From IMG/VR virus record IMGVR_UViG_3300022745_000032, positions 1 to 64,000 of that record: a DNA stretch of 64,000 nt. One strand, written 5' to 3'. The notes beneath the pieces are model-generated. The model made no database searches, had not been told where the DNA came from, and saw nothing but the letters and a program-made list of their open reading frames with translations. Source of the DNA: a virus. Shown piece by piece: positions 3,763-59,408 of the stretch (positions are counted from its first letter, which is position 1; each line of letters opens with the position of its first letter). Both the position numbers and the translations under genes were made by a program.

Positions 3763-5013
3763 TTAGGGGGTAATTCCACGTTGTTCCAAGTATGCTTTTG
3801 CAGTCTTGTTACCAGCCTTGGCCAGAGCCCTCAGCTTGTCAATCTTGTCATCGATGGATGCGGATTCGGGCGTTTTGGCTGCTTTTACGGGCTTTTCTTG
3901 GTCAGGGGTGGTATCTGACCCTCCCTTGTCATCAGAAGGCCTGGAAGTGGCCTTAGAATCTCCGGAATCGGCATCCCTGAGCTTCCTTAGCTCCTCATGA
4001 TCCCTCACCATCTGGTCGGTGAGGTATTTGGCCTGCTTGGCCGATTCAATGCTGGACCTCCTGAGGGTAATGTACTGCTCATAAGCAGCCTTGGTCTCGG
4101 GAGAGGCATTGGCCACGCTCTTGATAAATGGCAATCCCTTCTCCCTAGGCACCTGATTGCCATCCTTGTCTGTGGTGTAGGCTTTGTCGTACCACTCACT
4201 CAGCTTAACCGGAACCATGGGATTCAACGGATCTGGTACCACGGTATTGCCAAGCCTTGAGGCCTCAAGTGCATCACTGTCGCGCTGCTTCTGGAGCAGT
4301 TTGACGGTTTCCGCTTGTGAATTGATCTTGCTAATCATCGCGTTGGAACGATCGGCAAGGGCCTTGGCCTGGATCATCTTGGCCTCACCCTCCTGCTTGA
4401 GGTAATTGGTATTGGCCAAGGTAAACCCGATCTTAGCGGAATCAGCCGCCTGCTGGAGCTGGATGTTGTCGGGCTCGGCCTCAGCTTTGGCAAGGGTGGC
4501 ATCAAGATTGGCCTTGGCGAGATCGACCTGCTTTTGGGCGGATTCCTTGTTCCAAGTGCCCATTGCCGAAGCAACTGCCAACCTTCCTTCCTGACCCGCC
4601 TCATCTACTGCAGCCTGACGCTGCTCAGCTCCAGTCTTGAGCTTTGCTTGGACAGCACCTTGGCCAAGAATATCAGACCTTGATTGAGCATCAGTAGCCA
4701 GGAATGGGGCTTTGGCCGCATTCTCGGCAACTTGGGTATTGGCATTGGAGATGGTCGCAGCAGCGCTTGGCGCATAGGTGTCCTTGAGCGCCCCAAGCTT
4801 GGCCAGAATGTCCTGCTTCTCGGCCTCATGGGTTGCACGCTGGGTATCCAGCATGAGGTTCAGGAGCTGGTTCTGGGTGTCGGCCCGATTGATGTTCAGG
4901 GACGCAAGCTGGCCCTGCTGGAACGCTTGGGGATTAAACGCCACCAACCCCGGATCAACCGGGGTGAATTGTGGCATGACCTGAACTTGAAAACCGCCAG
5001 TATTGATCGGCAT
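3763..5013 (-). CDS. internal virion protein, coiled-coil rich
   Basis: 416 residues, rich in Ala, Gln and Lys and predicted to be almost wholly helical or coiled coil from about residue 45 to 250. The C-terminal tail is charged and low-complexity (Ser/Asp/Lys/Pro, about 350-395). No Cys and no enzyme motif is seen. It lies between two other candidate internal virion proteins and its stop abuts the ATG of the giant protein at 3762. I infer a middle-sized ejection protein comparable in position to T7 gp15 or P22 gp20. Sequence alone cannot prove this. Confidence 0.6.
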   Translation of the reverse strand: MPINTGGFQVQVMPQFTPVDPGLVAFNPQAFQQGQLASLNINRADTQNQLLNLMLDTQRATHEAEKQDILAKLGALKDTYAPSAAATISNANTQVAENAAKAPFLATDAQSRSDILGQGAVQAKLKTGAEQRQAAVDEAGQEGRLAVASAMGTWNKESAQKQVDLAKANLDATLAKAEAEPDNIQLQQAADSAKIGFTLANTNYLKQEGEAKMIQAKALADRSNAMISKINSQAETVKLLQKQRDSDALEASRLGNTVVPDPLNPMVPVKLSEWYDKAYTTDKDGNQVPREKGLPFIKSVANASPETKAAYEQYITLRRSSIESAKQAKYLTDQMVRDHEELRKLRDADSGDSKATSRPSDDKGGSDTTPDQEKPVKAAKTPESASIDDKIDKLRALAKAGNKTAKAYLEQRGITP

Positions 5014-5019
5014 GATGCT

Positions 5020-6000
5020 TTAGCCAGTTGGATAGTAACCGCCAAATCGGGTGTTAACCAACTTGGAGTTGTCGGGGATGATGTTGCCATTGCCACCGCC
5101 AAATGCCCCAGCCAATCCAGCCATGCCGCCTGCATTCTGGAACATGGAACCGGCCAAGCCGTACATATTCTGGGATTGGCGACCGTAGATGTTGGCCTGA
5201 TTGGCAAAGGCCGCACCACGGGCATTCTGGTTACCAACGGCGATGTTGGCGATTGAACCCGGATCAAGACCAACAACAGGACGTTGGATCCCCTCGCCAT
5301 ATTGGGCTGCACCCATGGCCCGATTGAAGTTGGACTCGGAAAGGCTTTTCAGCAGCTGGATCTTTTGGAGGAGGTTCTGGGCGTTGAACTGCTGGTTTTG
5401 GGTGTCGAGCTGGCCGAATTGCGAGGCATCGTTGAGCCTCTGCTGCTGGAGCTGGAGTGAGGTAAGCCCAAGATCCCTCGCCACAATATCACGGCCCAAG
5501 CCCAACCTGCCACCACCCACCATACCTGCATGAGCCAAGCCCGATTGGGTAACTGCGTTCTGGGTTTCTGTTGAAAGCGACCCGCCAAGTGCAAGATTTG
5601 CCTTGGCCCTGGCAATGGCGGCGGCAAGCAGTGGGCTATTGATGTTATTGCCCAAACCAGAAAGAAGCAGGGACTGGGAGGCCTGATCGGAGGCGGAGGG
5701 GGCTAGACCCGCCAACACCGCCTGATTGGCTGCAGTCCTCAGCTGGGGAACCTCTGGGGTAAGCTGGCGCTCAAGCTCGGCTGAATCCAAGGCATTCTGA
5801 CGGGCAATCGACCTGACCTGCTCATTCAGTTGGTTGATGTCAACCTGGGCAGCCTGACCCGCCTGACCAGCAGCACGATTGGCTTGATTACCCGACAATG
5901 CACCACCCAGCAAGGTACCGCCAATGCCAATGGCGGATGATGCGGCGGTTCCGAGACCGGCTGCACTTGCAATGGGACCGGCTAAGGCGAGGAGGGGCAT
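5020..6000 (-). CDS. internal virion / DNA-ejection protein
   Basis: 326 residues. The N-terminal 45 residues are an Ala/Gly-rich hydrophobic segment (PLLALAGPIASAAG...) that could insert in a membrane. Gln/Asn/Ala-rich helices follow, and the C-terminus is Gly-rich (GGMAGLAGAFGGG) ending near GGYYPTG. Such composition is typical of podovirus ejection proteins. It is the first of three consecutive genes of this type, separated from the next by 6 nt. No SD sequence precedes the ATG. Confidence 0.6.
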   Translation of the reverse strand: MPLLALAGPIASAAGLGTAASSAIGIGGTLLGGALSGNQANRAAGQAGQAAQVDINQLNEQVRSIARQNALDSAELERQLTPEVPQLRTAANQAVLAGLAPSASDQASQSLLLSGLGNNINSPLLAAAIARAKANLALGGSLSTETQNAVTQSGLAHAGMVGGGRLGLGRDIVARDLGLTSLQLQQQRLNDASQFGQLDTQNQQFNAQNLLQKIQLLKSLSESNFNRAMGAAQYGEGIQRPVVGLDPGSIANIAVGNQNARGAAFANQANIYGRQSQNMYGLAGSMFQNAGGMAGLAGAFGGGNGNIIPDNSKLVNTRFGGYYPTG

Positions 6001-32993: not shown

Positions 32994-33584
32994 CTAGGAT
33001 TTAACGTCACCGGCATTCAGCCCTCCAAGGACGAAGCAGTCCTTAGGTGGGACTGCAGGATCTTTTCTGGCTGAAACCTTGTCTGGTGCATCTAGGAAAG
33101 CAAGTAGCCCCAGGTCAGCGCCATGACAAGTGCAAAATCCAACATCGTCCGGAACATCCTTTCCCTGACGGAGAAGGAATAGTCGCCGGTCGAACTCTTC
33201 AGCCTCTGGACTGGTGGCCCAATCCATGGCGGAATTGAAGGGACAGTCCCGGCACTTCTCCCATCGTAGCTCAGCCTCTTTCACGGTAAGGAGTTTCTTG
33301 GGAGGGGCGAACCACATGTAGCGTACCCAATCCCTCCACCTGCGGTACTTCTCATTGAGGGCGGGCTTCTCACGCTCCCCGTTCTGCACCATGGCGGGAT
33401 AGTGCTCGGCGTAGTACTTGATGATGTCGCCCTCCGGATCTCCCACCGGCTGGCCGTTGGCAATGCGCAGCTCGGTGATCTTCTTCTTCAGCTCGTCAAT
33501 GGTATCAGCACGCAGCACCAGCCCCATGATGGGGAAGTGGTGGCCTCCTGGCGGCAGGGTCTGCTGCTTGTGATTGATGACCAT
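32994..33584 (-). CDS. Cys-rich hypothetical protein after terminase
   Basis: 196 residues. The centre is ELRWEKCRDCPFNSAMDWA and the later part GFCTCHGADLGLL, a C-x2-C ... C-x-C-H set that may bind zinc or an iron-sulfur cluster. The first 70 residues have a helix-rich DELKKKITELRIAN. Start overlaps the terminase stop (TAATG). It may assist packaging; function unknown. Confidence 0.55.
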   Translation of the reverse strand: MVINHKQQTLPPGGHHFPIMGLVLRADTIDELKKKITELRIANGQPVGDPEGDIIKYYAEHYPAMVQNGEREKPALNEKYRRWRDWVRYMWFAPPKKLLTVKEAELRWEKCRDCPFNSAMDWATSPEAEEFDRRLFLLRQGKDVPDDVGFCTCHGADLGLLAFLDAPDKVSARKDPAVPPKDCFVLGGLNAGDVKS

Positions 33585-36500
33585 TATTCCAAGTCTCCTG
33601 TTTCGGCGTCGCCTGAGATGGAATCGTCCACCTCTACCGTGGCGTAGCGGGAAATGGGGTGGAGTTGGACGCCTTGCGTCCTTTCCTCGATTACAGGATC
33701 AGGTGTCCTTTCCTCAACAAGTCCGGGCAGTACGCCGCCCTTCATCCTGACTAGGTGGGGGAGCATGACAAAGGCGTCGGCCTCGTCGGGTGAGGCATTG
33801 GCGTTGCGGGCCTTGTACTCGTCCTTCGGCTCAACCTTGATGCCCCTCTTGCCGGTGCGGTAGCGGCGGCTGGTGAGCTGATGGTTGATTGGGGAGGTCG
33901 GAATGATTGGATTGATGAAGATGGCCCCGGTATGGGGGTCCATCCAGCGCCGGAAGGTCCACCACATCTCGGACATCACTCCCTCGCATTGGGCGTCTGC
34001 GCCTTCGGTGTCCTCGCTGAGAATCTTTCCTTCGGTTGCGCCCTCGTTCCAGCTTACTCCATTCACATCGCCCCATACCTTGCGGAGGTGGGAATAGACG
34101 CCAAGGCCAATTCCGGTCTTGTCGATCACCACCCACTCGGGCTTGATCTTCATCATCTTGCAGCGACCGATGATTTCCTCGCTCATCTTGACGGTGTCGT
34201 CGTGCTTGGCTAGGGGGAGGAGCTGGTCGATCTGGAGAACGTGGCGGGGCTTTGATTTGGACACGTTGAGGCGGTCGGCAAACGTCGTATGCTGGCCCTT
34301 GAAATCCCTCCAGCCTGAGGCCCTTCCCCACCTGGCCACCACCATCTGGGCGGTGTCGTTGCCCATGAAGGCCAAGTCGATGGAGGCGAGAACGGACGGG
34401 TTCTCGATGAAGGTAACCTCTCCCCGCACCTGATTTGGCCAAGACGGAGGGATGATCGTGTTGACGCTGCCCGAAACCGGAGGAAACCCTCGACCGAAGC
34501 ATAAATACGCCGGGGAGTTGTCGCCACCACCCTTAAGGTACTTAAGAAATCCATCATAAGTCTGGAGGCCGTCATAGACCACCTTCCTAGCCATGACGTT
34601 TTCGCTCTTAGCTGCGTCAAGACGGCAAACCCTCCATCCGGCCTTGCTCTCATAGTCGTAAAGACTATCCAGGTCCTCAATGATCCATCCATGATCCGGT
34701 TCAGCCAACTGGACAGCCTTGCAGGTGGTGTTCTCGGGATTGAAGGCGCATACGATCTTGACCTTCTCGGTTGAGGACAGGGAAGCGGTTAGAGAGTTAA
34801 AGTCCTGGAATGGGCCTCCGGGGATATTTTGGCAGTTATGGACACACACGCCTTCGACAAAGAAGTTGTGCGTTCCATCGACGTCTATGCAGAAAACGAC
34901 GTCTTCCTCCTCATGGTCCATTCCAACCTCAGTTGCCTTGCTAGGGCCATTCTGCATTTTGGTGAGCAGGTGAGTGCCCTCCTTAGCTTGCGAAATGGGG
35001 ACCCGCATATCCTGCATGGAATTATCATCGGGCCATTTAGCATTGGCATCTCTGCTGGCTTTGGGGGTGGCGAGTCGCCCGAAATCTTGTAACTCAGGCA
35101 GGGGTGGATAAATGGACTGACTGAGGCCACAAAGCGACGCGATGCATCCGCACTCATTGCTATGATCAGCCTTCCCTTGCTCTTGCTTGGCTTCGACTGG
35201 AATCCAAGTCCCGTAAGAAACGCCGCAGCCGCATGAACATCCTCCGCTGGCCATGCGTATGTCGATAGTTTCACGTGTGGTCCCTTCAGGAACTGGCCGT
35301 GCGATGAACTGCCGTCGTCCATGAACCAAACAGCAAGCGCCATCATGTCTATCATCTTGACCATTTCTGGGTGAAAGCGCCTCACTCCGTTGATGCAGGT
35401 CTTGTGGTAGATTTCCGTGAAAATTGGATGGCTGATTGTTGTGAAGCTGTAAATCATCCCCCCGAACTCCGTCGATTGAGGACCCTTGATTTGGGAAGTT
35501 GTGAAGTTTGCCATCAGATCCCTCTTCCATCTCAAGTAATCCAGCTGGGCCACACCATGCATGAATTTGATTCTGGAGTTTGCCTTTGAGACTGGCGGCA
35601 TAATTGACGCATCGCCCATTAGGCCCCCGATCACCAGTGAAAGCTGCTCCCTGCTTAACTTGTCCGAAGGTGAATAGGTTTTCATGGTCGATTTTGAGAC
35701 ACGTCATCCTAGACAGGATGGCCTCATCTGCAATCACAAAACCTCGCTCTTTGGTCAAAATCCTATGGTCGTAGGTAACGACCGCCCCATTTACAGAAAC
35801 AAAGCGTCGGCCACGGCGCGGTACTTCTCTCCATCCGGTAATTTCCCTTGGCTCAATTATGCCAGTGGCTGGGTTGAGAGATAGGACATGCCCTTTAACC
35901 CTGTTCCTTACCAGTTCGCATATCGTGATAAGCGATCCGTCTGCCATCGAAACTCGCTGATCTCCGCGTACGCATTCGTCAGCGAGCACCCTTAGACGGG
36001 AGTGGGGAGGGAGCTTTGATCCTATTGGACGCTTAACGGGAAGGGACTTGTACCCTTTGAATTGGCCGGATGTCTCTTGGGATTGCTTGAAGGCAATACC
36101 AGATATGCCGAACTCCATGCCTGCATCCTTGATCCCGATCCACATGTCGGCCTCCTTGAAGTCGAACTTGGTGGCGGGGGGAATGGCAAGGCCCCGGATG
36201 AGCTTGGCGACGTGAGGGAAGAGATTCTCCCTTAGATGCTTTTCGGAGACGGCTGCCAGCTTGATGGAGGTGTAGCGCGGGTCCTTGAGGTAATCTAAGG
36301 CCATCCATGCACCCACGGAGTACGATTTGCCCATCGAGCTTGCTCCGGGAATTAGGAGGAGGGCGGATGTCGCAACGGCGTTGAATACGCGCTGAACGCA
36401 TTCCGGCTCAGCGTTGAAGAGGACGGGTCCCCATTGGAGGGTTGCGGCCTCAAGGTACAGGCCTTCGCTTAGGAGGTGCTGGAAGAGACCCCTGCAGATC

Positions 36501-36628
36501 GCCAGAGCCTGGGCCTTGGTTGTGACGGTGGGCTTGTTGCCCATCAGGTCCATCACATTATTCCCGGCCTCAATCCAGTTATCCGCCGAGATCAGGTCAT
36601 TCAGCTCCCTTGCTTCCTTGATTGTCAT
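33584..36628 (-). CDS. terL: terminase large subunit, interrupted by an intein
   Basis: 1014 residues before splicing, 634 after removal of the intein (residues 219-598). The ATPase domain has Walker A PGASSMGKS (94-102) and Walker B LRVLADE just before the intein. The nuclease domain follows it, with Asp residues in SIDLAFMGND, WVVIDKTGIG and PDEADAFVM. The splice junctions are DE|C and HN|C, so the extein product should have an intact Walker B. It pumps DNA into the head with the portal. Its start overlaps the preceding 124-residue gene by 32 nt. Confidence 0.9.
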   Translation of the reverse strand: MTIKEARELNDLISADNWIEAGNNVMDLMGNKPTVTTKAQALAICRGLFQHLLSEGLYLEAATLQWGPVLFNAEPECVQRVFNAVATSALLLIPGASSMGKSYSVGAWMALDYLKDPRYTSIKLAAVSEKHLRENLFPHVAKLIRGLAIPPATKFDFKEADMWIGIKDAGMEFGISGIAFKQSQETSGQFKGYKSLPVKRPIGSKLPPHSRLRVLADECVRGDQRVSMADGSLITICELVRNRVKGHVLSLNPATGIIEPREITGWREVPRRGRRFVSVNGAVVTYDHRILTKERGFVIADEAILSRMTCLKIDHENLFTFGQVKQGAAFTGDRGPNGRCVNYAASLKGKLQNQIHAWCGPAGLLEMEEGSDGKLHNFPNQGSSIDGVRGDDLQLHNNQPSNFHGNLPQDLHQRSEALSPRNGQDDRHDGACCLVHGRRQFIARPVPEGTTRETIDIRMASGGCSCGCGVSYGTWIPVEAKQEQGKADHSNECGCIASLCGLSQSIYPPLPELQDFGRLATPKASRDANAKWPDDNSMQDMRVPISQAKEGTHLLTKMQNGPSKATEVGMDHEEEDVVFCIDVDGTHNFFVEGVCVHNCQNIPGGPFQDFNSLTASLSSTEKVKIVCAFNPENTTCKAVQLAEPDHGWIIEDLDSLYDYESKAGWRVCRLDAAKSENVMARKVVYDGLQTYDGFLKYLKGGGDNSPAYLCFGRGFPPVSGSVNTIIPPSWPNQVRGEVTFIENPSVLASIDLAFMGNDTAQMVVARWGRASGWRDFKGQHTTFADRLNVSKSKPRHVLQIDQLLPLAKHDDTVKMSEEIIGRCKMMKIKPEWVVIDKTGIGLGVYSHLRKVWGDVNGVSWNEGATEGKILSEDTEGADAQCEGVMSEMWWTFRRWMDPHTGAIFINPIIPTSPINHQLTSRRYRTGKRGIKVEPKDEYKARNANASPDEADAFVMLPHLVRMKGGVLPGLVEERTPDPVIEERTQGVQLHPISRYATVEVDDSISGDAETGDLE
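34835..35974 (-). other. intein within terL
   Basis: 380 residues, inserted directly after the Walker B Asp-Glu. Block A is CVRGDQRVSMADGSLITI, block B AVVTYDHRILT (with its essential Thr-x-x-His variant TYDH), block F EDVVFCIDVDGTHNFFVEG, and block G VCVHN, followed by Cys+1. All splicing residues (Cys1, B-block His, penultimate His, Asn, Cys+1) are present, so splicing is likely. The 250-residue region between B and F, where an in-frame endonuclease would be, is low-complexity in this frame and instead encodes a LAGLIDADG protein in another frame. Confidence 0.9.
34885..35685 (-). CDS. LAGLIDADG homing endonuclease, out of frame inside intein
   Basis: 266 residues, wholly inside the intein coding sequence but one base out of phase with terL. 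The two LAGLIDADG helices are LSREQLSLVIGGLMGDASI (about residues 10-28) and MIDMMALAVWFMDDGSSS (about 110-127), each with its acidic residue. The last 45 residues form a zinc-finger-like CRICGS ... CSPKC. An in-frame TGA lies 21 nt before its ATG, so it is not joined to the upstream intein frame by simple read-through. No SD is visible. It could home the intein into intein-less terL alleles. Confidence 0.85.
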   Translation of the reverse strand: MKTYSPSDKLSREQLSLVIGGLMGDASIMPPVSKANSRIKFMHGVAQLDYLRWKRDLMANFTTSQIKGPQSTEFGGMIYSFTTISHPIFTEIYHKTCINGVRRFHPEMVKMIDMMALAVWFMDDGSSSHGQFLKGPHVKLSTYAWPAEDVHAAAAFLTGLGFQSKPSKSKGRLIIAMSADASRRFVASVSPFIHPCLSYKISGDSPPPKPAEMPMLNGPMIIPCRICGSPFRKLRRALTCSPKCRMALARQLRLEWTMRRKTSFSA

Positions 36629-49684: not shown

Positions 49685-49889
49685 ACTCCAACTCCATGAC
49701 AAGCTGCCCGACGCATGGATCGGCTATGCCGTTGACCGTGAACGGGGCGGCTTCTTCGTAAGAATTTGCACGCTATGTCCAGATCACACAAGGGCCATAA
49801 GAGACGCAAATGTTTCCGGCCTAAGATGGCGGGTGGGTTGCTGCCCCACCCACGCATCCATTCGCAACGAGCAGCAGGTATCAAGATGA
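49677..49889 (+). CDS. Cys-rich hypothetical protein
   Basis: 70 residues from ATG 49677. Contains VRICTLCPDHTRAIRDAN and GLRWRVGCCPTHASIR, two C-x-x-C/CC-x-x-H groups, likely a zinc-binding fold. Its stop overlaps the amidoligase start (ATGA), so it may belong to the amidoligase operon. Confidence 0.5.
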   Translation: MNELQLHDKLPDAWIGYAVDRERGGFFVRICTLCPDHTRAIRDANVSGLRWRVGCCPTHASIRNEQQVSR

Positions 49890-50743
49890 AGAACATGACC
49901 ATGCTATCGTTCGGAGGTGACCCCGAGGTCCACCTCTTTGACAAGAAACTGGGTCGCATTGTCAGCGCCATTCCGGTGCTTAAGTGCGACAAGCACAACC
50001 CCGTCGATTTGGGCGAGGGCTACAAGTGCTACGCCGACAACGTGCTTGTTGAGTTCACGATCCCCGTGAGCTACAGCCCGTTCTCGTTCATGAACAATGT
50101 CCTGAGGGGTGTTGAGCTGATCCGCAAGCACTTGGAAAAGATCGAGCCCGATCGGTACGATCTGCGCTGCGTTGCTGCGTACGAGTACGCCAATGAGGAT
50201 CTTCATGACGAGAAGGGCAACAAGCTTGAGCAGGCCTGGAAGATCGGATGCGATCCGACCTTTGATGCCTACGCCCGGGCCATGAATCCCATCCGGGAGT
50301 TCGACAGCAACCTGCGCACGGGCTCGTTCCACGTCCATGTGGGGCATCCCGACCTGATTGCCATCGAGGCCAAGGAGCGGATGATCCACCTCATGGATGC
50401 CTTTGTCGGCTGTCCGTTTGTGCTGGCCGACAACGACCCCAGCACCCTCAAGCGCCGCCAGTATTATGGTCGGGCGGGTGAGTTCCGGGTGACCGACTAC
50501 GGTGTCGAGTACCGGGTGCTCAGCAACTTCTGCATGCGCAAGGCTTCCCATATCGAATCGATCGGAAAGCTGACCAATGCCGCCTTCAGCGTTCTCAAAT
50601 TCCATGGCAACGAATCCATCCTCAAGGGCCTCAGCAATGAAATCCAAAAAGCCATCAACACGGGCGACCGCAGCAGTGCGGAAAAGGTCATCAAAGAAGT
50701 CGGCGTCCCCATCAGCTTCGTCAACGACATCCTCGCCGGATGA
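49886..50743 (+). CDS. phage COOH-NH2 ligase-type amidoligase (A)
   Basis: 285 residues from ATG 49886 (ATGA). The N-terminal FGGDPEVHLFDKKLGRIVSA holds the D-P-E of phage amidoligases, DNVLVEFTIPVS the second acidic site, and GSFHVHVGHPDL a H-x-H strand of the glutamine synthetase-like fold. Such enzymes use ATP to join a carboxyl group to an amine, modifying peptides or small metabolites. First enzyme of the modification block. Family known from comparative genomics; the substrate is not. Confidence 0.75.
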   Translation: MKNMTMLSFGGDPEVHLFDKKLGRIVSAIPVLKCDKHNPVDLGEGYKCYADNVLVEFTIPVSYSPFSFMNNVLRGVELIRKHLEKIEPDRYDLRCVAAYEYANEDLHDEKGNKLEQAWKIGCDPTFDAYARAMNPIREFDSNLRTGSFHVHVGHPDLIAIEAKERMIHLMDAFVGCPFVLADNDPSTLKRRQYYGRAGEFRVTDYGVEYRVLSNFCMRKASHIESIGKLTNAAFSVLKFHGNESILKGLSNEIQKAINTGDRSSAEKVIKEVGVPISFVNDILAG

Positions 50744-51488
50744 GGCGGCTGAGGTTGCTAAGGTTGCTGCGCCTGCAGCGCCACCCAAGCCAGCGCCGGT
50801 CACCCTGCTGCCCTCGGTCCAGTTGCGCAAGACCCTTAGCGAGGGTCGGATCAAGGGCATTGGCTTTGGCTTTGCCCGCAAGATCAGCCCATCCGAGTTC
50901 CAGCTGACCATGCCGATCTCGGCCTGCAAGGACTACCTCAATGACGTCGTATGCTCCGAGCATACCGGTCGTGAGTTGGTCAACTACGGGCTGAATACGG
51001 TCAAGCTTGGCATCTTCACGGGTGGCAGGGCCTACCTTGGCATGCAGTGCCTCAGGCATCGTGACGCTGAGGGCAAGGCCGACCCGCTCATCGATGACTT
51101 GGCGGTGCGGCTTGCATCCGGGCTGACCAAGATTGAGGTGGGCATCCGGCTATTGGAGGAGGCGCTCAAGATCGATGGTCGCACCTCCTTCCTCACCTCA
51201 ACCGAAGGCAGGTACGTTGCCGACATTCCCGACTTCTGGGTGCGGTATCCCTACCTGATTTCACTGTGGGGGCTGGTTGTGCGGAACTTGGTTTTCTGGA
51301 ATGGGGACCCCAAAAGCCTCATGGGATTCACGTTCTTTGCCAGCGAAGATACCTATTACACCAAAGCCGCCAAGGACAAGGTTGCCTTGTTGGTTAAGCT
51401 CAGGAACGAGGGCAAAGACGTTCCCCATGTCGCCATGGAAGCGCCCTTCGCCCCTCACTGGCAGGGCATCATCTCCCAACCACTCTAA
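50637..51488 (+). CDS. hypothetical protein in amidoligase operon
   Basis: 283 residues from ATG 50637 (overlaps amidoligase A by 107 nt; no later in-frame ATG before the domain). The N-terminal 50 residues are basic, Ser/Ala-rich and low-complexity, like a linker. The rest is alpha/beta (LRKTLSEGRIKGIGFGFARKISP, NYGLNTVKLGIFTGGRAYLG, DFWVRYPYLISLWGLVVRNL). Unknown; it may be the substrate-recognition partner of the ligase. Confidence 0.55.
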   Translation: MKSKKPSTRATAAVRKRSSKKSASPSASSTTSSPDEAAEVAKVAAPAAPPKPAPVTLLPSVQLRKTLSEGRIKGIGFGFARKISPSEFQLTMPISACKDYLNDVVCSEHTGRELVNYGLNTVKLGIFTGGRAYLGMQCLRHRDAEGKADPLIDDLAVRLASGLTKIEVGIRLLEEALKIDGRTSFLTSTEGRYVADIPDFWVRYPYLISLWGLVVRNLVFWNGDPKSLMGFTFFASEDTYYTKAAKDKVALLVKLRNEGKDVPHVAMEAPFAPHWQGIISQPL

Positions 51489-51493
51489 TCGTC

Positions 51494-52216
51494 ATGATCT
51501 CACATCAACGCAGGCTGGTGCATAATCCCAGCGGCCATATCGCCACGGCATATGGTGTTCCATCAACGGGATGGTTCATTCCGTTCATGCTCAACAAAGC
51601 AGCCTACCCCATCCTTGTCTCCAATTCCCCGCATTCGTGCCGGGAAACGTACGGTGGGCTGTTCGCCCAGCCTGACATCAGCAAGATCGATCCCCGCTTT
51701 GTCGGTCTTCTTGCCCCCAAGAACACCAGCAATCTCGCTGAAAGGGTTGCCTGCATGCTGGATTGGGTGTCGTCCCAGCTGGGCGAGCGAACCCGGTGCA
51801 TTGTCTCAAGGATCTCAACCGTGGCAACGACAGATCCCAAGGCAGTGAAATCACAAGTAGATCAGAACCATGCCGTCTGCATCTACACCCCTCCTTGGTG
51901 GAGGCATAACGGCCTACGCCATGGCATGCTAACCCTTTTCGTCAGGGGTAGCCTTTTCCTGCCCGCCAGTGGCGTTTCTCTTGGGGTGGAGGGTGAGTCA
52001 TGCCTTGCTGCCCTGAGGGCCTACACGTTGGCAGGAACGGCCTTGCCGGGGATTCTGGAGTTCCTCAAGGGCTCCACCGTCCCGGTCAAGCCCATCTCCC
52101 ATTCCACCGTGGTCAATACCCTAAAAGGCCTTCAGGACCCAGGCTTCATCAAGTCGGTCATCCGACCACCCAAAACCGCCCTAGAGAAAGCGGCAGCCAA
52201 AGTGAGGAGTTCATAA
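51494..52216 (+). CDS. hypothetical protein in amidoligase operon
   Basis: 240 residues. Starts after TAATCGTC without SD. Notable: NSPHSCRETYGGLFAQPD (Cys48), WWRHNGLRHGMLTLFV and an N-terminal SGHIATAYGVPSTGWFIPFML. The last 40 residues are Lys-rich. No known fold seen. It lies between the 283-residue gene and the C26-type hydrolase and ends 1 nt before it. Confidence 0.5.
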   Translation: MISHQRRLVHNPSGHIATAYGVPSTGWFIPFMLNKAAYPILVSNSPHSCRETYGGLFAQPDISKIDPRFVGLLAPKNTSNLAERVACMLDWVSSQLGERTRCIVSRISTVATTDPKAVKSQVDQNHAVCIYTPPWWRHNGLRHGMLTLFVRGSLFLPASGVSLGVEGESCLAALRAYTLAGTALPGILEFLKGSTVPVKPISHSTVVNTLKGLQDPGFIKSVIRPPKTALEKAAAKVRSS

Positions 52217-52891: not shown

Positions 52892-53212
52892 ATGAGACAG
52901 CTAGTTATTACCCTGCCAACTAATTGGTCCAGGACGCTTTGTGGGGTTGCGCCAGCAGGATACGTATATGAGTTCGTCTCCGACACGCTTGCTACCGCCT
53001 GGTCATCCAACCGATACTACTCAATCGATGGGATTTTCATTGGGACTACGCCACCACACCTGACCAACATCCCGGTCATCGACGCCATTCAAGACTTTAA
53101 GGTCGGCTGTAACCACATCGTCGCCTACAAGTTAGTTAAGACGGGATCAGCGGCCCAAGCCAAGCAAACTTCCATTTCCAAGATAGCATCCATCCCATGC
53201 CCACTACCATAA
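52892..53212 (+). CDS. tagged protein 1 (C-terminal A-S-I-P-x-P-L-P)
   Basis: 106 residues from ATG 52892. The body RQLVITLPTNWSRTLCGVAPAGYVYEFVSDTLATAW is beta-rich with a GYVYEF strand, no family. The C-terminal end KIASIPCPLP is the same motif as in four further proteins at 57.4-59.4 kb. The next gene's ATG lies inside the tag coding sequence. Acts probably as a substrate or partner of the amidoligases; inference only. Confidence 0.6.
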   Translation: MRQLVITLPTNWSRTLCGVAPAGYVYEFVSDTLATAWSSNRYYSIDGIFIGTTPPHLTNIPVIDAIQDFKVGCNHIVAYKLVKTGSAAQAKQTSISKIASIPCPLP

Positions 53213-53394
53213 AAGAACTCAGGAAGAAGCTAAGGCAGCGAGAAGCCGAACTCGTTCGGGTCAAGTTCGAGGCCCGGGAGATGAGATCCATCCTGCTTCG
53301 CATCCACTCGGCCAGAATCGGCATGAGTGAGTCTGGTGTCATCCAGGGACTTAATGACATCGACTCATTCTTCAGGGAGCCCCATGTCAACTGA
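53197..53394 (+). CDS. small coiled-coil protein
   Basis: 65 residues, starts within the tag of the previous gene (16-nt overlap). A basic coiled coil (KELRKKLRQREAELVRVKFEAREMRSILLRIHS) followed by an acidic tail. Perhaps a dimeric regulator. ATG overlap with the next gene as well. Confidence 0.5.
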   Translation: MPTTIKELRKKLRQREAELVRVKFEAREMRSILLRIHSARIGMSESGVIQGLNDIDSFFREPHVN

Positions 53395-53578
53395 TCGTCT
53401 CTTGGCTGAGGTTAATAGGGTTGGCAGGAAAGGGTCTGCGGCAATCCTTGGATGCAGCGAAGAGTACGTGGAGTCCTGGTTTCCGAGGATAAACTTCCGG
53501 AGCGGCAGGATTGAGTCCGGGCTTGAGCCTTCAGCCGGATTCACGGCTGCAGCATTGGCGGAATTAAGCCGCCACTAA
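53384..53578 (+). CDS. small HTH-like protein
   Basis: 64 residues from ATG 53384 (11-nt overlap with upstream). The segment VNRVGRKGSAAILGCSEEYVESWFPRINF resembles a helix-turn-helix. The rest is short. Could be a regulator of this block; it is followed directly by a terminator. Confidence 0.45.
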   Translation: MSTDRLLAEVNRVGRKGSAAILGCSEEYVESWFPRINFRSGRIESGLEPSAGFTAAALAELSRH

Positions 53579-53584
53579 CATCTT

Positions 53585-53616
53585 CCATCCACGGTGCCCG
53601 ATACGTGGATGGTCTT
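53585..53616 (+). terminator. rho-independent terminator
   Basis: CCATCCACG (53585-53593), 10-nt loop, CGTGGATGG (53604-53612), then TCTT. It ends the first amidoligase operon 6 nt after its last stop. Confidence 0.8.
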
Positions 53617-53626
53617 CAACATCGGG

Positions 53627-53638
53627 TGCGTTAACGCA
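53627..53638. promoter_or_regulatory. operator-like palindrome TGCGTTAACGCA
   Basis: A perfect 12-bp palindrome between the terminator and the 53656 gene, 17 nt before its ATG. It is a candidate operator of a dimeric regulator. No clear -35/-10 pair was seen nearby. Confidence 0.5.
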
Positions 53639-53655
53639 ATAAGAGAAAGACAGAT

Positions 53656-54069
53656 ATGAACAAGTACTACCTCCAGAATGGCTCCGGCCTTTACTTCGTT
53701 GCTGGTCGCGGTTTCTCCGCTTCCAACAAGGGTGATGCGTCGCAGCTGACTGCCGCCGAGATCCATAGCCTCCGGGCCTTGGGCTTCTACGGCACGTCCG
53801 TCGATGCCACGCGGAACTTCACGGTGAACTACGTTCGCCCGCAGGACCGCACGACCTATGGTGGCCGCGCCGCCGTCTCCAGCAATGCGAACAATCCTTC
53901 GTCGAAGGTGTTCGCGTCGATTGGCGAGGCCGTCAACCACGCCAGCCGCAACCTTGAGTCCAACGGCCACGTTGGCTTCTGGGTGACCGAGACCTCCAAG
54001 GCCGTCACGCACTACGTGTCGGTTAAGGAGGACCCGCGCGGTCTGACCTGCCCGATCGAGAACAAGTAA
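53656..54069 (+). CDS. hypothetical protein, independently transcribed
   Basis: 137 residues between two strong terminators, so probably highly and separately expressed. One of few genes with an SD-like leader (AGAGAAAG). Sequence YYLQNGSGLYFVAGRGFSASNKGDASQLTAAEIHSLRALGFYG and VGFWVTETSKAVTHYVSV; no TM, two-domain look, one Cys. Codon use is more GC-rich than its neighbours. No family recognised. Confidence 0.6.
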   Translation: MNKYYLQNGSGLYFVAGRGFSASNKGDASQLTAAEIHSLRALGFYGTSVDATRNFTVNYVRPQDRTTYGGRAAVSSNANNPSSKVFASIGEAVNHASRNLESNGHVGFWVTETSKAVTHYVSVKEDPRGLTCPIENK

Positions 54070-54086
54070 TCGTCGGTGGCAGTAAT

Positions 54087-54112
54087 AGCCCCGGGGCTTC
54101 GGCCCCGGGGCT
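54087..54112 (+). terminator. strong UUCG-loop terminator
   Basis: AGCCCCGGGGC (54087-54097), TTCG loop, GCCCCGGGGCT (54102-54112). Perfect 11-bp stem with the stabilised UUCG tetraloop, followed by CATCCCTTTC. Ends the 53656 transcript. Confidence 0.9.
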
Positions 54113-54145
54113 CATCCCTTTCAATCATCAACCAAGTCCAATATC

Positions 54146-56161
54146 ATGGCGTCAATCAAGAAGGAAGAGGAGGAGTCGAGGAGCTTTTATTCCATCGACG
54201 GGTTCCTTCCGCTCGCCGGTAGCGTGCCAAGCATTCCCGGTGACATGCTGGCCAACATCAAGGGTGGATGCACACCCGACACCGTCAAAGCCGATGATTC
54301 CTACGTTGGTAAGTCGATCTCCAAGATCACGGGCGATCGCAATTACCGATTCTACCGCAGGACTGAACTCATCAAACCCGGGCAAATCTGCCCCACCTAC
54401 ATGTCATCCATGATTAAACTTGATGGACGCAAGACTGGGCGTCCGCGTCCGACCGCATGCAGCGAGAACGCCAGTGCGCTGCCCGATAATGTCGATCCCA
54501 AGACGACCGTCTCCATCTACCGCTTTACCTATCCTGATTCCGTCAGGGCTGATTGGCAGGGGTATGCCGGTTTCGGCTGGCTCCATGTCAGCGAGAGGAT
54601 GTACTTCACCAACGATTTCTTCTTCTGCCAGATCGACGGAACCTTGGCCAGTCGCTCGTTTGGAGTCATAGCCTACACCGGAGCCATGATCAACAACCGC
54701 CATATTAAACTTGGCGAGTGGTTCGTCTGCGATTACGACGGCAAGGCCTATCCCAAGAGCAGGCTTGTGGTTGTCAAGGGTCTTGAGGGCGATGTCAACA
54801 TGAGCGATGCCTGCGCCACTGAGCGCTCGTTCATCTGCGACTACGACAAGGCACGCTGGGAGCGCTCTTGCAGGGTGCATATCTCGTCCTCATCCAAGTA
54901 CAAGGTTGTCTCGCGCAAGTATGTCAGTGGCGAGGGGGATCCCTTCATTCTTTGCCCAGAGTGCTCCAAGGCATTTGAGACCTCGGCCAATGCGGTCCTG
55001 CCAAGGGATGACATGGGCGTTGTCGCCTGCACTGGCTGTTACGAGACATTCATGGCAAGGGATGTCATCAAGGCCCATAACTTCACGGGCTATCCCAAGC
55101 CCATCTTCCACGCCATCCGCCAGCCCCTCATCACAGAAGAGGCCGCAGCCAAGGCCGAGGAGTTCATGAGCAACATGGGCCATCCCATGGCCGCTGAAGG
55201 CTACCTAAGGTCCCTCAAGAAGTCCCGGTATCTTTACGGCATTGAGTGCGAAACCGAGTTCACGGGTCGTGAGGATGGCCTCAGGGCCAAGCTGGCCCTT
55301 CAGGCCTGGAAGGCCTTGGGTCAGGACTTCTGCATCATCAAGCATGATGGCAGCCTTTCGGGCAAGCGTGATCCAGAGCCGGGTGAGAAGGTGCGTCGTG
55401 GTGGCGACTTTGGCTTTGAGATCGTCTCCGCTCCATGTGACATCGAGACTCACCGTGAGCGCTGGCGCAGGCTCGAATCCATGCCCGATTACAAGCAGCT
55501 CAGGGCATGGGATGTGGGCACCTGCGGCCTGCATATCCACGTCAGCCGAGCCCCGATGACGTCCCTCCAGATCTGCCGGTTGTCCTACATGATCAACCAT
55601 CCCAAGCTCAAGGGCTTCATTGAGATGGTGGCGGGTCGGGCGGCTGCTAGGTACAACAAGTTCGTACCCAAGCGCCTGCCTGATGGCACCAAGCCCAACA
55701 TCGACAAGGACAAGTACACCGCCATCAACCTCAAGCATTCGGCCTCCATTGAGTTCCGCATCTTCCGTGGCACCGTCAACTGGCGTCATATCATCCGCAA
55801 CCTTGAGTTTGTTGCCGCCTGCGTGGCTTACTGCCATCCTGCCGACCGATCCCTCAAGGATCTTGAGTCCCATGAGAAGTTCGTGACCTTCATCTCCGAG
55901 CATCGCAAGGAATGGCCCGAGCTGAATCGCTGGCTTGATCTGCAGGAGGAGTTCAAGCGCATGATCAAGCCTGCCAACAAGGGTGCCTTTGGCCCCAAGG
56001 ACAACCGCACCAAGGCTGGCGAGAAGCCCATTGTCCTTGAGGAGGTCCACGATCCCGACCGAGTTCCCGCCAAGCCCAAGCCTAAACCCGCCAAGCTTGA
56101 GCCTGCAACCCTGGCTCCGTCGGGATTCGATTTCGAGGAACTCATCGACGACAACGCTTAA
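54146..56161 (+). CDS. large amidoligase (B) with zinc-finger region
   Basis: 671 residues. N-terminal 250 residues are a beta-rich domain. A zinc-finger-like block with CPEC ... CTGC lies around 270-305. From about 363 the amidoligase domain follows: YGIECETEFTG (acidic site), GTCGLHIHVSRAP near 465 (H-x-H), and SIEFRIFRGTVN near 534 (E-F-R-I-F-R signature of amidoligase_2). C-terminal tail is Pro/Lys-rich and acidic. Larger than simple amidoligases; the extra N-terminal domain could bind the substrate. It begins the second modification operon. Confidence 0.85.
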   Translation: MASIKKEEEESRSFYSIDGFLPLAGSVPSIPGDMLANIKGGCTPDTVKADDSYVGKSISKITGDRNYRFYRRTELIKPGQICPTYMSSMIKLDGRKTGRPRPTACSENASALPDNVDPKTTVSIYRFTYPDSVRADWQGYAGFGWLHVSERMYFTNDFFFCQIDGTLASRSFGVIAYTGAMINNRHIKLGEWFVCDYDGKAYPKSRLVVVKGLEGDVNMSDACATERSFICDYDKARWERSCRVHISSSSKYKVVSRKYVSGEGDPFILCPECSKAFETSANAVLPRDDMGVVACTGCYETFMARDVIKAHNFTGYPKPIFHAIRQPLITEEAAAKAEEFMSNMGHPMAAEGYLRSLKKSRYLYGIECETEFTGREDGLRAKLALQAWKALGQDFCIIKHDGSLSGKRDPEPGEKVRRGGDFGFEIVSAPCDIETHRERWRRLESMPDYKQLRAWDVGTCGLHIHVSRAPMTSLQICRLSYMINHPKLKGFIEMVAGRAAARYNKFVPKRLPDGTKPNIDKDKYTAINLKHSASIEFRIFRGTVNWRHIIRNLEFVAACVAYCHPADRSLKDLESHEKFVTFISEHRKEWPELNRWLDLQEEFKRMIKPANKGAFGPKDNRTKAGEKPIVLEEVHDPDRVPAKPKPKPAKLEPATLAPSGFDFEELIDDNA

Positions 56162-56186
56162 ACCACAACCCAACCATATCCAGATC

Positions 56187-57362
56187 ATGTGCATCATCAT
56201 ATCGAAGCCCGCTGAAAAGAAACTGCCCAAGTCCATCTACGAGGAGTGCTTCCGCTCCAACAAGGATGGGGCGGGCATCGCCTACATCGAAGATGGCAAC
56301 ATCGTGCTCAAGAAGGGCTTCTTCAACTTTGAGGAGTTCTACAAGGCCATCGCCGAGAAGGAGGATCATGGCATGCTGATCCACTGCCGCATCGCCACCC
56401 ATGGTGTGGTCGGCAAGGATAACTGCCACCCGTTTACCTTCACCTCGTCGGACAAGAAGTACCAGTGGGTCATGGCCCATAACGGCACACTTGACTGGCG
56501 CTCCACCAAGGAGATGTCGGACACCGCCTGCTTTGCCGAGGATCTGCTCTGGCCCATGGTTGACCATGTTCCGGATGTCTTCGACAAGCCGTTCGGTGAC
56601 GAGATCATGGACAAGATGCTCGGAGCCAGAAACAAGATGGTCGTGGTGCGCTACGAGCTGGCTAAGAATGAGTACACCACCTACATCTTCAATGAGACCG
56701 CAGGCAACCGCCATAATGGCTGCTGGTTCTCCAACATGAGTTGGAAGCCCTACCGCGCCTCCACCACTGGTTACGGCTATGGCTACGGCAGCAATGTCCA
56801 ATATGGGATGGGCGGGGCCTACGACGATGGCGACTTCTACGGTCACAAGGACGAGGACAACAGCATCTCCGTTTATGGCTGGCGGAAGAACAAGCACGGC
56901 ATCTGGATCAACGACAAGGACAAGAAGGCCCAGTTCGATGGCCAGTTCCACGACATCAGCAAGGTAACCAATATCGACAATGCCGACGAGCTGGACATCC
57001 TCAAGGCCAATGGGGATGATGCCAATGACTCGCCCTCCAACGAGCCCAAGGACAAGAGCAGCAAGCCCAAGCTTGAGCCCATGTCCAGCGATCGCAAGAG
57101 CCTCATCCGTCGGGGTTTCATCCATGTTCGCACGACTGGCCAGCTATCACGGGATCTCAAGTCCGAGGACAGAGTTGCAATCATGCGGAAGGATTTCCGG
57201 GAGCACTTTCCTGAGAAGTTTGCCAACGCCTCTGGGATTGAGGCGTGCGATACCATCATCCTTGGGATGAGCGAAGACACCTTCACCTCATCCTGCCTGC
57301 GTATTGCCGACAATCGCAAGGCTGCCAAGCGCGAGGAGGAGCGTGCAGCCTCAGCCACCTGA
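56187..57362 (+). CDS. class II glutamine amidotransferase (Ntn hydrolase)
   Basis: 391 residues from ATG 56187. MCIIISKP has the N-terminal nucleophile Cys2, exposed after Met removal. GMLIHCRIATHG (about 62-73) and MAHNGTLDWR (about 95) complete the GATase II active site. It ends in a Gly/Tyr-rich linker and a helical acidic C-terminus, with no synthase domain. It would release ammonia from glutamine, in line with an amide-forming partner. It follows amidoligase B by 26 nt. Confidence 0.85.
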   Translation: MCIIISKPAEKKLPKSIYEECFRSNKDGAGIAYIEDGNIVLKKGFFNFEEFYKAIAEKEDHGMLIHCRIATHGVVGKDNCHPFTFTSSDKKYQWVMAHNGTLDWRSTKEMSDTACFAEDLLWPMVDHVPDVFDKPFGDEIMDKMLGARNKMVVVRYELAKNEYTTYIFNETAGNRHNGCWFSNMSWKPYRASTTGYGYGYGSNVQYGMGGAYDDGDFYGHKDEDNSISVYGWRKNKHGIWINDKDKKAQFDGQFHDISKVTNIDNADELDILKANGDDANDSPSNEPKDKSSKPKLEPMSSDRKSLIRRGFIHVRTTGQLSRDLKSEDRVAIMRKDFREHFPEKFANASGIEACDTIILGMSEDTFTSSCLRIADNRKAAKREEERAASAT

Positions 57363-57389
57363 TGAGCGGACGGGATGGTGGGTCACAAC

Positions 57390-57953
57390 ATGTCACAAAT
57401 CAAGACGGACGGCGGTACTGTTGTTAGGTTCAGCGCCATAGAGGCCAACACGTACTACCACAGGCACCTTCTCAGCCTGAAATCATGGGGCGAACTCAAG
57501 GACGATCAAGCAGTCACGCTTGGGGACATCATCACGCGGATCAGGGTAGACACCGTCCTGTGGGCTGAGTGGATTTGCTTCAGGCAAAGGTACGGGGATG
57601 CATTCATGAAGCCCGATGATCCACTGGCACTGAGCAAGGCAGACACCCGCCAAGCAATGGCATTCAGGGTTCCGAGTCCGAACTACGTGTGCACTGGCAA
57701 GGATATACGAGAGATGTCCGGGGTTGGAAAGCGGGTGAAGCTGTTCAGATACACTCCGATCATGTGCACCTTCAATCAGTTCAATTCGTGGCTGATTGGG
57801 ATCATGATCGACCCAAAGCTGATGCGCAAGCCGACGCTGTCCATGCTGAAGTCAAAGCTCAACCCCGCGTTTGTCGATCTCTCGTCAATACCGGACCCAA
57901 GTCCCGAATTCACTGTAAGTCCGATTGCTTCGCTACCCGTTCCACTTCCATGA
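57390..57953 (+). CDS. tagged protein 2 (C-terminal A-S-L-P-x-P-L-P)
   Basis: 187 residues from ATG 57390 (an upstream in-frame ATG at 57375 is possible). The first part GGTVVRFSAIEANTYYHRHLLSLKSWGELKDD is mixed alpha/beta; four Cys are spread in the middle. The C-terminus is PIASLPVPLP. Overlaps the next gene by ATGA. No enzyme motif. Confidence 0.6.
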   Translation: MSQIKTDGGTVVRFSAIEANTYYHRHLLSLKSWGELKDDQAVTLGDIITRIRVDTVLWAEWICFRQRYGDAFMKPDDPLALSKADTRQAMAFRVPSPNYVCTGKDIREMSGVGKRVKLFRYTPIMCTFNQFNSWLIGIMIDPKLMRKPTLSMLKSKLNPAFVDLSSIPDPSPEFTVSPIASLPVPLP

Positions 57954-58510
57954 TCCCAATCGTCCTCATCGACCCAAAGTCCATCATTAGGCACGGGGAT
58001 TTAGTCTTCAGTGCAGACCTCACGGCTGAACAGCTGCTTTTGGCCATAAGGCCAGGTTCCATCCTGATGCATGATCAAACGAACGTACTGCACGGATTTG
58101 GAAACAAATTCATCTGCGTGGCATTGGGGTGGAGCAAATCTAGACTAGAGTCCATCGACCATGGCCCAGCCGCCATCATCAGGTATGGTTCGTTTATTAG
58201 GAACGATGGAACCGCTGAACCTGAAGCCTTCAAGAGCCTTGGATTACTGATTCGGGTGATTACTGATGGAAATCCATCGAACCTGAAGGTACCAGTTGTT
58301 GAAGTGATGAAGAACTACATCGAACGACCCATTCAACGAGATCAAGTTGCTGGGACTCTCTCCATCAATGAGATTGAGTCCATTATCTCAAAAAGTATTT
58401 GCAGGAGAGTTAAGGATTTGCCGAACTACTACCATGCGCACACATCCCAATACGCGGTAATGAGCGCGGCGATCTCCCCAATAGCCTCCCTGCCATCCCC
58501 ACTGCCATGA
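57950..58510 (+). CDS. tagged protein 3 (C-terminal A-S-L-P-x-P-L-P)
   Basis: 186 residues from ATG 57950. N-terminal IVLIDPKSIIRHGDLVFSADL has an 'I-R-x-G-D-h' motif also found in tagged proteins 4 and 5. The rest is alpha/beta with many hydrophobic positions. It ends in PIASLPSPLP. ATGA coupled. Confidence 0.6.
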   Translation: MIPIVLIDPKSIIRHGDLVFSADLTAEQLLLAIRPGSILMHDQTNVLHGFGNKFICVALGWSKSRLESIDHGPAAIIRYGSFIRNDGTAEPEAFKSLGLLIRVITDGNPSNLKVPVVEVMKNYIERPIQRDQVAGTLSINEIESIISKSICRRVKDLPNYYHAHTSQYAVMSAAISPIASLPSPLP

Positions 58511-58950
58511 GCACCGTCCATAACATTTTGGTAACCAGAGAGCCCAATTTCATGATTCGTTCCGGTGATGTCATCGTCCCGGAGGGCATGATAGTACTTC
58601 ATCTAATGTTGTTTTGCGATCTTAATCCCAGTGGGCGATGGCACTCAGACAACCGATGCGGTAAACCAATTCCATTTATCGTCAACAACTGGACCGAGAA
58701 ATCGCTTGGATGGGTCGAGGAGCGGCTGCTCCTCAGCTGCGTCCTTATCAGAGGGGTTGCGATGAAAGACCCAATGTCTTTGGTTTCAGATCGATTCATC
58801 GTTAATTGCGGGCTATTCAAGAAGCTGCCAGGGGACCTTGACCCCAATAAGTCAATGAGCGCGTATTGGGCGAGTTTTTCGATTTGTGGTGACGATAGGC
58901 CCTCCAGATCCATCTCCTCCACTGCCTCCATTCCCGCTCCACTACCATGA
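58507..58950 (+). CDS. tagged protein 4 (C-terminal A-S-I-P-x-P-L-P)
   Basis: 147 residues; N-terminal NILVTREPNFMIRSGDVIVPEGM again shows I-R-S-G-D. Central helices (WVEERLLLSCVLIRG). Ends in STASIPAPLP. ATGA coupled on both sides. Confidence 0.6.
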   Translation: MSTVHNILVTREPNFMIRSGDVIVPEGMIVLHLMLFCDLNPSGRWHSDNRCGKPIPFIVNNWTEKSLGWVEERLLLSCVLIRGVAMKDPMSLVSDRFIVNCGLFKKLPGDLDPNKSMSAYWASFSICGDDRPSRSISSTASIPAPLP

Positions 58951-59408
58951 GCCTGCAAGACGTTGAGATTGTTCACCCTACCAAACTGGTTACAAGCGGA
59001 GATCTGATCATCGACAGATTCCTCAAGGCCTCCAATTTCAGGAGAATTGTCCAGTTGGCAGGAAAATCGACCTCCAGGCTGGCATCGTTCCATCTCAACA
59101 TCGATCCCCAGTACTTCATGGATGTGATCAGGTTCAATGCCGACGATTACGGGCTGACGGCTTCGACCGTGTCCCACCACAAGAGCCAATACGGCAGGCC
59201 CTACTGCAGCACCATTACCCCGATAGCCATTGGTGGCATTGGCATGGATGGCTGGATTCAGTGGGGTGTACTTGAGCAGCTGTGCGATCTGCTCGATCTG
59301 TATCGCATGTACCCAGATGCGCTTGCGCTGGATGTCATTGCCAACCCGAAGAAACATCCGAGGGTCCGCATCTCAGAGATTGCCTCCATCCCCGTACCAC
59401 TTCCATGA
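58947..59408 (+). CDS. tagged protein 5 (C-terminal A-S-I-P-x-P-L-P)
   Basis: 153 residues; N-terminal VEIVHPTKLVTSGDLIIDRFL holds the T-S-G-D-L form of the shared motif. A Gly/Ile-rich segment (TPIAIGGIGMDGWIQWGVLEQL) lies in the middle. Ends in EIASIPVPLP. ATGA coupled. Confidence 0.6.
   Translation: MSLQDVEIVHPTKLVTSGDLIIDRFLKASNFRRIVQLAGKSTSRLASFHLNIDPQYFMDVIRFNADDYGLTASTVSHHKSQYGRPYCSTITPIAIGGIGMDGWIQWGVLEQLCDLLDLYRMYPDALALDVIANPKKHPRVRISEIASIPVPLP

Follow-up and report, generated by a model that had tools for sequence, protein, structure and literature searches.

Genome-specific C-terminal peptides on small proteins encoded beside phage amide-ligase modules

Results

A ligase module and five proteins with a common end

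The stretch of viral DNA analysed here (the window) comprises 64,000 nucleotides, positions 1 to 64,000 of the IMG/VR record IMGVR_UViG_3300022745_000032, and carries on its + strand a cluster of ligase and amidotransferase genes. The cluster includes a gene for a COOH.NH2 ligase type 2 (LIG1, 49886..50743; PF14395 E 1.3e-11, phrog_3815 E 8e-49) and, at 50736..51488 (start uncertain), one for a module-linked protein with no assigned function and no Pfam or PHROG match, a homologue of which adjoins LIG1 in the relative G004 (locus L077; tblastn 31%, E 1e-19). These are followed by an ORF inside the module that lacks both the tag described below and any Pfam or PHROG match (51494..52216), a class-I glutamine amidotransferase / peptidase C26 (52218..52877; PF07722 E 1.1e-17; 44% identity to the copy in G004), an Amidoligase_2 family protein with an N-terminal extension (AL2, 54146..56161; PF12224 E 3.6e-6, phrog_16683 E 2e-18) and a class-II (Ntn) glutamine amidotransferase with a Met-Cys start (56187..57362; PF13230 E 3e-7), in the alignment of which C2, R68, H98-N99-G100 and D112 are invariant. 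COOH.NH2 ligase, Amidoligase_2 and glutamine amidotransferases thus stand in one cluster, as in the phage COOH.NH2-ligase module. LIG1, AL2 and the two amidotransferases were the only members detected, and none of the ATP-grasp, P75 and GAT2a partners was found between 45 and 64 kb. ATP-grasp was detected in all other tagged loci checked, except for L134-like partial stretches, and most module loci have P75, a protein of ~200 aa with no assigned function (phrog_11055), as a neighbour of the COOH.NH2 ligase. A suspected link between P75 and the tag was dropped, since its profile placed P75 in most module loci.

Five predicted proteins encoded on the same strand end in a common peptide, identified by pattern search and alignment: T1 (106 aa, 52892..53212, ending ISKIASIPCPLP, with the tag ASIPCPLP at 53186..53209), T2 (187 aa, 57390..57953, with an alternative upstream ATG at 57375, ending VSPIASLPVPLP; ASLPVPLP at 57927..57950), T3 (186 aa, 57950..58510, ending ISPIASLPSPLP; ASLPSPLP at 58484..58507), T4 (147 aa, 58507..58950, ending ISSTASIPAPLP; ASIPAPLP at 58924..58947) and T5 (153 aa, 58947..59408, ending ISEIASIPVPLP; ASIPVPLP at 59382..59405), the last three with a GD near the N-terminus. 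Alignment of the five C-termini gives the consensus [IV]S-x-[IT]-A-S-[IL]-P-x-P-L-P, which extends beyond the A-S-(I/L)-P-x-P-L-P of the original prediction. A degenerate DNA pattern of motif plus stop matched the 67,787-base record five times, always on the coding strand and exactly at these ORFs (stops at 53212, 57953, 58510, 58950 and 59408); the reverse strand gave no match and neither did a reversed control over the same record, and composition leads one to expect 1.2e-5 such ends among 639 ORFs. Once the last 14 residues were cut off, the five bodies showed no convincing pairwise relationship (best E 0.033 over 24 aa). The original prediction, which was made from the letters and described different or weakly related bodies sharing one end beside amidoligase and amidotransferase genes, is thereby borne out, its enzyme neighbours by the PF14395, PF07722, PF12224 and PF13230 matches.

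The exact window tag yielded 56 single matches in IMG/VR, mainly in antisense or very short ORFs, and no locus with two, so that it has no known copy elsewhere. Searches for close relatives with AL2 and the class-II amidotransferase as queries found nothing. Of the portal-gene relatives, G002 has neither enzymes nor tag, and G004 keeps LIG1, the class-I amidotransferase and the neighbouring protein; no tag was seen in G004, whose contig stops there. A C-terminal CCCCAACCTCTACCATGA match in G004 was discarded, as it lies in the wrong frame inside the class-I amidotransferase gene. Two neighbouring paralogues of G004 (L077:746-1943, - strand) both end in NPVIG[LM].RTNR, and because their bodies are similar too, this pair is plain paralogy and not a tag.

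Elsewhere in the window, the terminase large subunit gene (33584-36628, - strand) contains an in-frame insertion (residues 219-599, ~380 in all) that bears the N- and C-terminal splicing signatures of an intein, and relatives match only the residues flanking it.

Other phages carry other tags

Loci with homologues of the enzymes were screened for C-terminal ends in common, and 84 further viral loci retrieved by LIG1 or AL2 were then subjected to automated scans; strict anchoring at the last residues missed the locus L186, and the scan was repeated as a local match within the last 22 residues. Some 17 other phage genomes encoding the COOH.NH2-ligase/amidoligase/amidotransferase module were found to have C-terminal tags of their own, a different one each time, borne by 5 to 18 small proteins in each genome (window included). 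In Sinorhizobium phage phiM6, ~14 small proteins end in DQEPxEEEETL, and in Rhizobium phage RHph_N3_13 ~16 end in QTGDTEDDI; in both, the tagged genes adjoin those for LIG1, AL2, an ATP-grasp protein, two class-II amidotransferases and one class-I amidotransferase. Cultured phages further include Citrobacter phage CVT22 (18 proteins ending in LENE), Klebsiella phage Asterion (12, LENK), Erwinia phage Pecta (14, LEND) and Salinivibrio phage CW02 (8, LLEENV), and seven proteins of the metagenomic T2S1 end in MENE. Automated scans added FKGN(I)K (L122), [EA]NE (L128), LENE (L144), EDKxII-EAL (L134), EExLYEI (L153), MGDREDDI (L180), QGDTDEDI (L181) and EPDDEDDV (L182). In L186, the whole module is accompanied by nine ORFs with a common K[TS]LEELMEEYL, and L299, a phage-like contig binned as Crocinitomix and found in a search of bacterial assemblies, encodes seven proteins with the end K-x-DWL.

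Matches at the control locus L020 (FNTKEK) and at L185 were judged to be SD or chance and were not retained as tags. Three adjacent small proteins of Pseudoalteromonas phage Slicky01 (L306:16969-17573) end in [VIL]LE, which is too short for a tag call. Upstream of the tagged cluster in L144, three tandem ORFs (3497-5533) consist of repeats such as 'VYGDAKVSGNA' and are probably repeat-helix proteins.

Tags were found only where both ligases occur

When the same tblastn set was applied across distinct loci, tagged families were present in 13 of the 56 loci with both LIG1 and AL2, in none of the 41 with part of the set and in none of the 137 without it (Fisher p 3.5e-8, a value that overstates independence because the tagged genomes form a few related groups). 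Tagged status was assigned partly by eye after the automated scans, and the 137 loci without the set include 56 retrieved through chance motif matches and 78 through a primase-helicase gene that adjoins the module in tagged phages. Used as a query, a small barrel protein retrieved the tagged L186 with its full module, and three other matches had neither module nor tag. The co-occurrence with ligase and amidotransferase genes anticipated by the original prediction therefore holds for tags in general, cultured phages with further tagged families included; its motif search fared less well, in that the exact motif was never repeated at other IMG/VR loci.

These counts bear on the possibility that the tag is read by something other than the enzymes, such as a host protease recognising a degron or a phage structure gathering early proteins, their co-location being historical. 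Degrons and sorting signals classically take the form of C-terminal tails, and not all tagged genes fall within the module region. On the other hand, no tagged family was found in the 178 loci lacking one or both ligases, and tags that differ so radically among phages would be odd for a conserved host protease, which makes a reader of this kind quite improbable. Ending at most ~6 residues from the stop, the tags also do not fit the layout of membrane sorting tags (PEP-CTERM, sortase), in which a hydrophobic helix and basic residues follow.

Most module-bearing phages have no tagged family; none was found in the PA11-like TC6, L189, L190, L297, L298, L300, T4S1 and T5S1. Because many phages have the enzymes without the tag, it is not required for the enzymes to exist. 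In the phiEco32-like loci L156, L163 and L164, the ligase module is accompanied by several small proteins of the GD type that have similar N-termini and no common C-terminus.

The peptide is what is conserved, clearly so in the long tags

The tag is conserved as a peptide, and clearly so in the long tags. In phiM6, RHph_N3_13, L180, L181, L182, L186 and CW02, the frequency of identical codons equals the expectation from codon usage (for example 0.48 against 0.48 expected and 0.45 against 0.45 expected in long tags), which points to randomised synonymous sites and leaves the peptide as the thing that is kept. The codons of the window tag also vary, yet codon identity is above expectation (0.53 versus 0.31, n=5, the CCA before the overlap being forced): the last Pro is CCA in all five, in four of them because the ATGA overlap with the next gene dictates it. 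The original claim that protein rather than DNA is conserved thus draws its strength from the long tags elsewhere, with the five window copies showing this excess.

Such an excess is what one would expect if the common end were simply the DNA of a ribosome-binding site or of a stop-start overlap for the next gene. In tags such as LENE, LENK, LEND and FKGN, the DNA reads GGAG or AAAGG immediately ahead of the next start. Since these letters also serve that start, codon similarity exceeds expectation in L122, L128, L144 and the LEN-type tags; the control locus L020 resembles such a case. Nevertheless, several observations make a purely translational signal very unlikely. The long tags vary synonymously at the level of codon usage, with neither conserved DNA nor constrained synonymous sites. 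Large genes of CVT22 have good SD sites but no tag. Short LEN-type tags keep the peptide even at distances above 12 nt from the next start, although 4 of 9 such cases have lost GAG, compared with 1 of 49 where the start is close (p 0.0014). No purine-rich site accompanies the window tag, and the motif is missing from the other ATGA overlaps in this arm of the record. A re-initiation signal, which the original prediction had named as the finding that would speak against a role of the protein end, accordingly fails for the window and for the long tags alike.

Tagged proteins are small and often barrel-like

Most tagged proteins are 60 to 130 aa long and their genes are interleaved with those of the enzymes. 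The tag was seen on none of 85 enzyme ORFs versus at least 83 small ORFs, and in five Zobellviridae-type genomes on no called gene above 150 aa. In whole-record scans tag matches were C-terminal, with a single internal match across all records; tags end at the stop or within ~6 residues of it, and in L186 another 1 to 5 variable residues come after them, with extensions also present on some copies in L153 and L122. A 'vGD.V' stretch opens many of the tagged proteins, which match PHROGs 11307, 9469 and 18715 (function unassigned) and, weakly, MIB_HERC2/SH3; tagged proteins are often SH3-like barrels. The structure predicted for an L153 tagged protein is a barrel (pLDDT 85.5) with confidence down to 48 in the tail, and this model is SH3-like, the nearest solved fold being YorP (TM 0.70). 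In T3-T5 of the window, GD alone stands near the N-terminus in place of 'vGD.V', and no usable model was obtained for them (AlphaFold pLDDT 35 for T4).

Two other roles could be imagined for proteins of this build. As modifiers in the manner of ubiquitin or Pup, they would be joined by the ligases to other proteins through their C-terminus. They do appear to be small folded proteins with a flexible tail, as judged from the model, and both PafA and the phage COOH.NH2 ligases are GS-like amide ligases. However, the final tag residues are P, L, I, V, K, E or D across genomes, variable extensions follow the tag as described above, no tag ends in the Gly-Gly-Gln/Glu of Pup, and the L153 model is SH3-like rather than beta-grasp, with no Gly-Gly end, all of which renders such a modifier highly improbable. 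Alternatively, the barrels could be adaptors that bind various host or phage targets and dock them by the common tail onto the ligase complex, host proteins then being modified. Their bodies are diverse and often SH3/MIB-HERC2-like, up to ~18 proteins per genome have one common tail, and this tail lies outside the predicted fold; yet adaptors would have no known target, and the same genomics is predicted if the tagged proteins are substrates. We regard adaptors as rather unlikely.

Discussion

Taken together, our results suggest that a genome-specific recognition peptide, conserved at the protein level, marks small proteins as clients of the adjacent amide-ligase/amidotransferase module, a proposal whose chances we put at about even. 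The tag would serve as a docking sequence for a component of the module, in the way that a leader peptide is bound by RiPP enzymes; candidate readers are the COOH.NH2 ligase, Amidoligase_2, the adjacent ~200-aa P75 or, in most phages, the ATP-grasp ligase. In our view, the small proteins are most likely substrates of the module and would acquire, through an amide link, a group that stems from ammonia or amines derived from glutamine, although the genomics fits adaptors equally well. The terminal carboxylate of the tag, on the other hand, is probably not the target of the ligases, since in L186 and in some L153 and L122 copies further residues follow it, which makes it unlikely as a common target. 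Of the two functions foreseen in the original prediction, recognition consequently fits best, while conjugation through the terminal carboxylate is weakened. Each phage would have its own tag because tag and reader presumably evolve together. A broader version, namely a private labelling code in which the ligases of each phage read their own peptide and modify either the tagged proteins or host targets brought in by them, is one we hold tentatively, at somewhat below even chances.

Sequence data revealed the phage amide-ligase module years ago, and the accounts of it read here offer proposed roles. If the tagged proteins are its clients, its targets become testable in cultured phages such as phiM6 on S. 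meliloti 1021, CVT22 and CW02. A peptide that is constant in any one genome but changes from genome to genome would, if true, represent an unusual, fast-evolving recognition code, and the tags offer a simple genomic signature for detecting more such systems. The open-access literature held no earlier report of common C-terminal tags linked to the module (Iyer et al. 2009 lying outside that coverage), and papers on phiM6, CVT22, Klyazma and StenR_269 do not mention such tagged small proteins.

Several known systems invite comparison. Iyer et al. (2009) reportedly defined the phage module of COOH.NH2 ligase, amidoligase, GATase and ATP-grasp. The same enzymes adjoin the tagged genes described here; what differs is that the accounts of the module read here mention no small proteins sharing a C-terminal peptide, and that the window lacks a detectable ATP-grasp and P75. 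The module has been recorded in phiM6 (PMC6256558) and CVT22 (PMC4505115), and peptide-bond synthesis and modification of host peptidoglycan have been proposed as its roles (PMC6256558). Pupylation (Pup/PafA) likewise pairs a GS-like amide ligase with a small client that has a special C-terminus, whereas the phage system has no Pup-like end, many different clients and a tag that need not be terminal. F-box and SOCS-box proteins are substrate receptors in ubiquitin ligases and likewise join diverse domains to one short docking element, but the phage tag is much shorter and genome-specific, and ubiquitin-type enzymes are absent from the phage system. Unlike RiPP precursors, the phage tagged proteins showed no conserved core residues, and where RiPP enzymes recognise a leader, the phage tag is C-terminal and sits on bodies the size of folded domains, 5 to 18 of them per genome. 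Still, RiPP precursors (e.g., those of graspetides) likewise combine a conserved short recognition peptide with variable parts beside amide-forming ligases.
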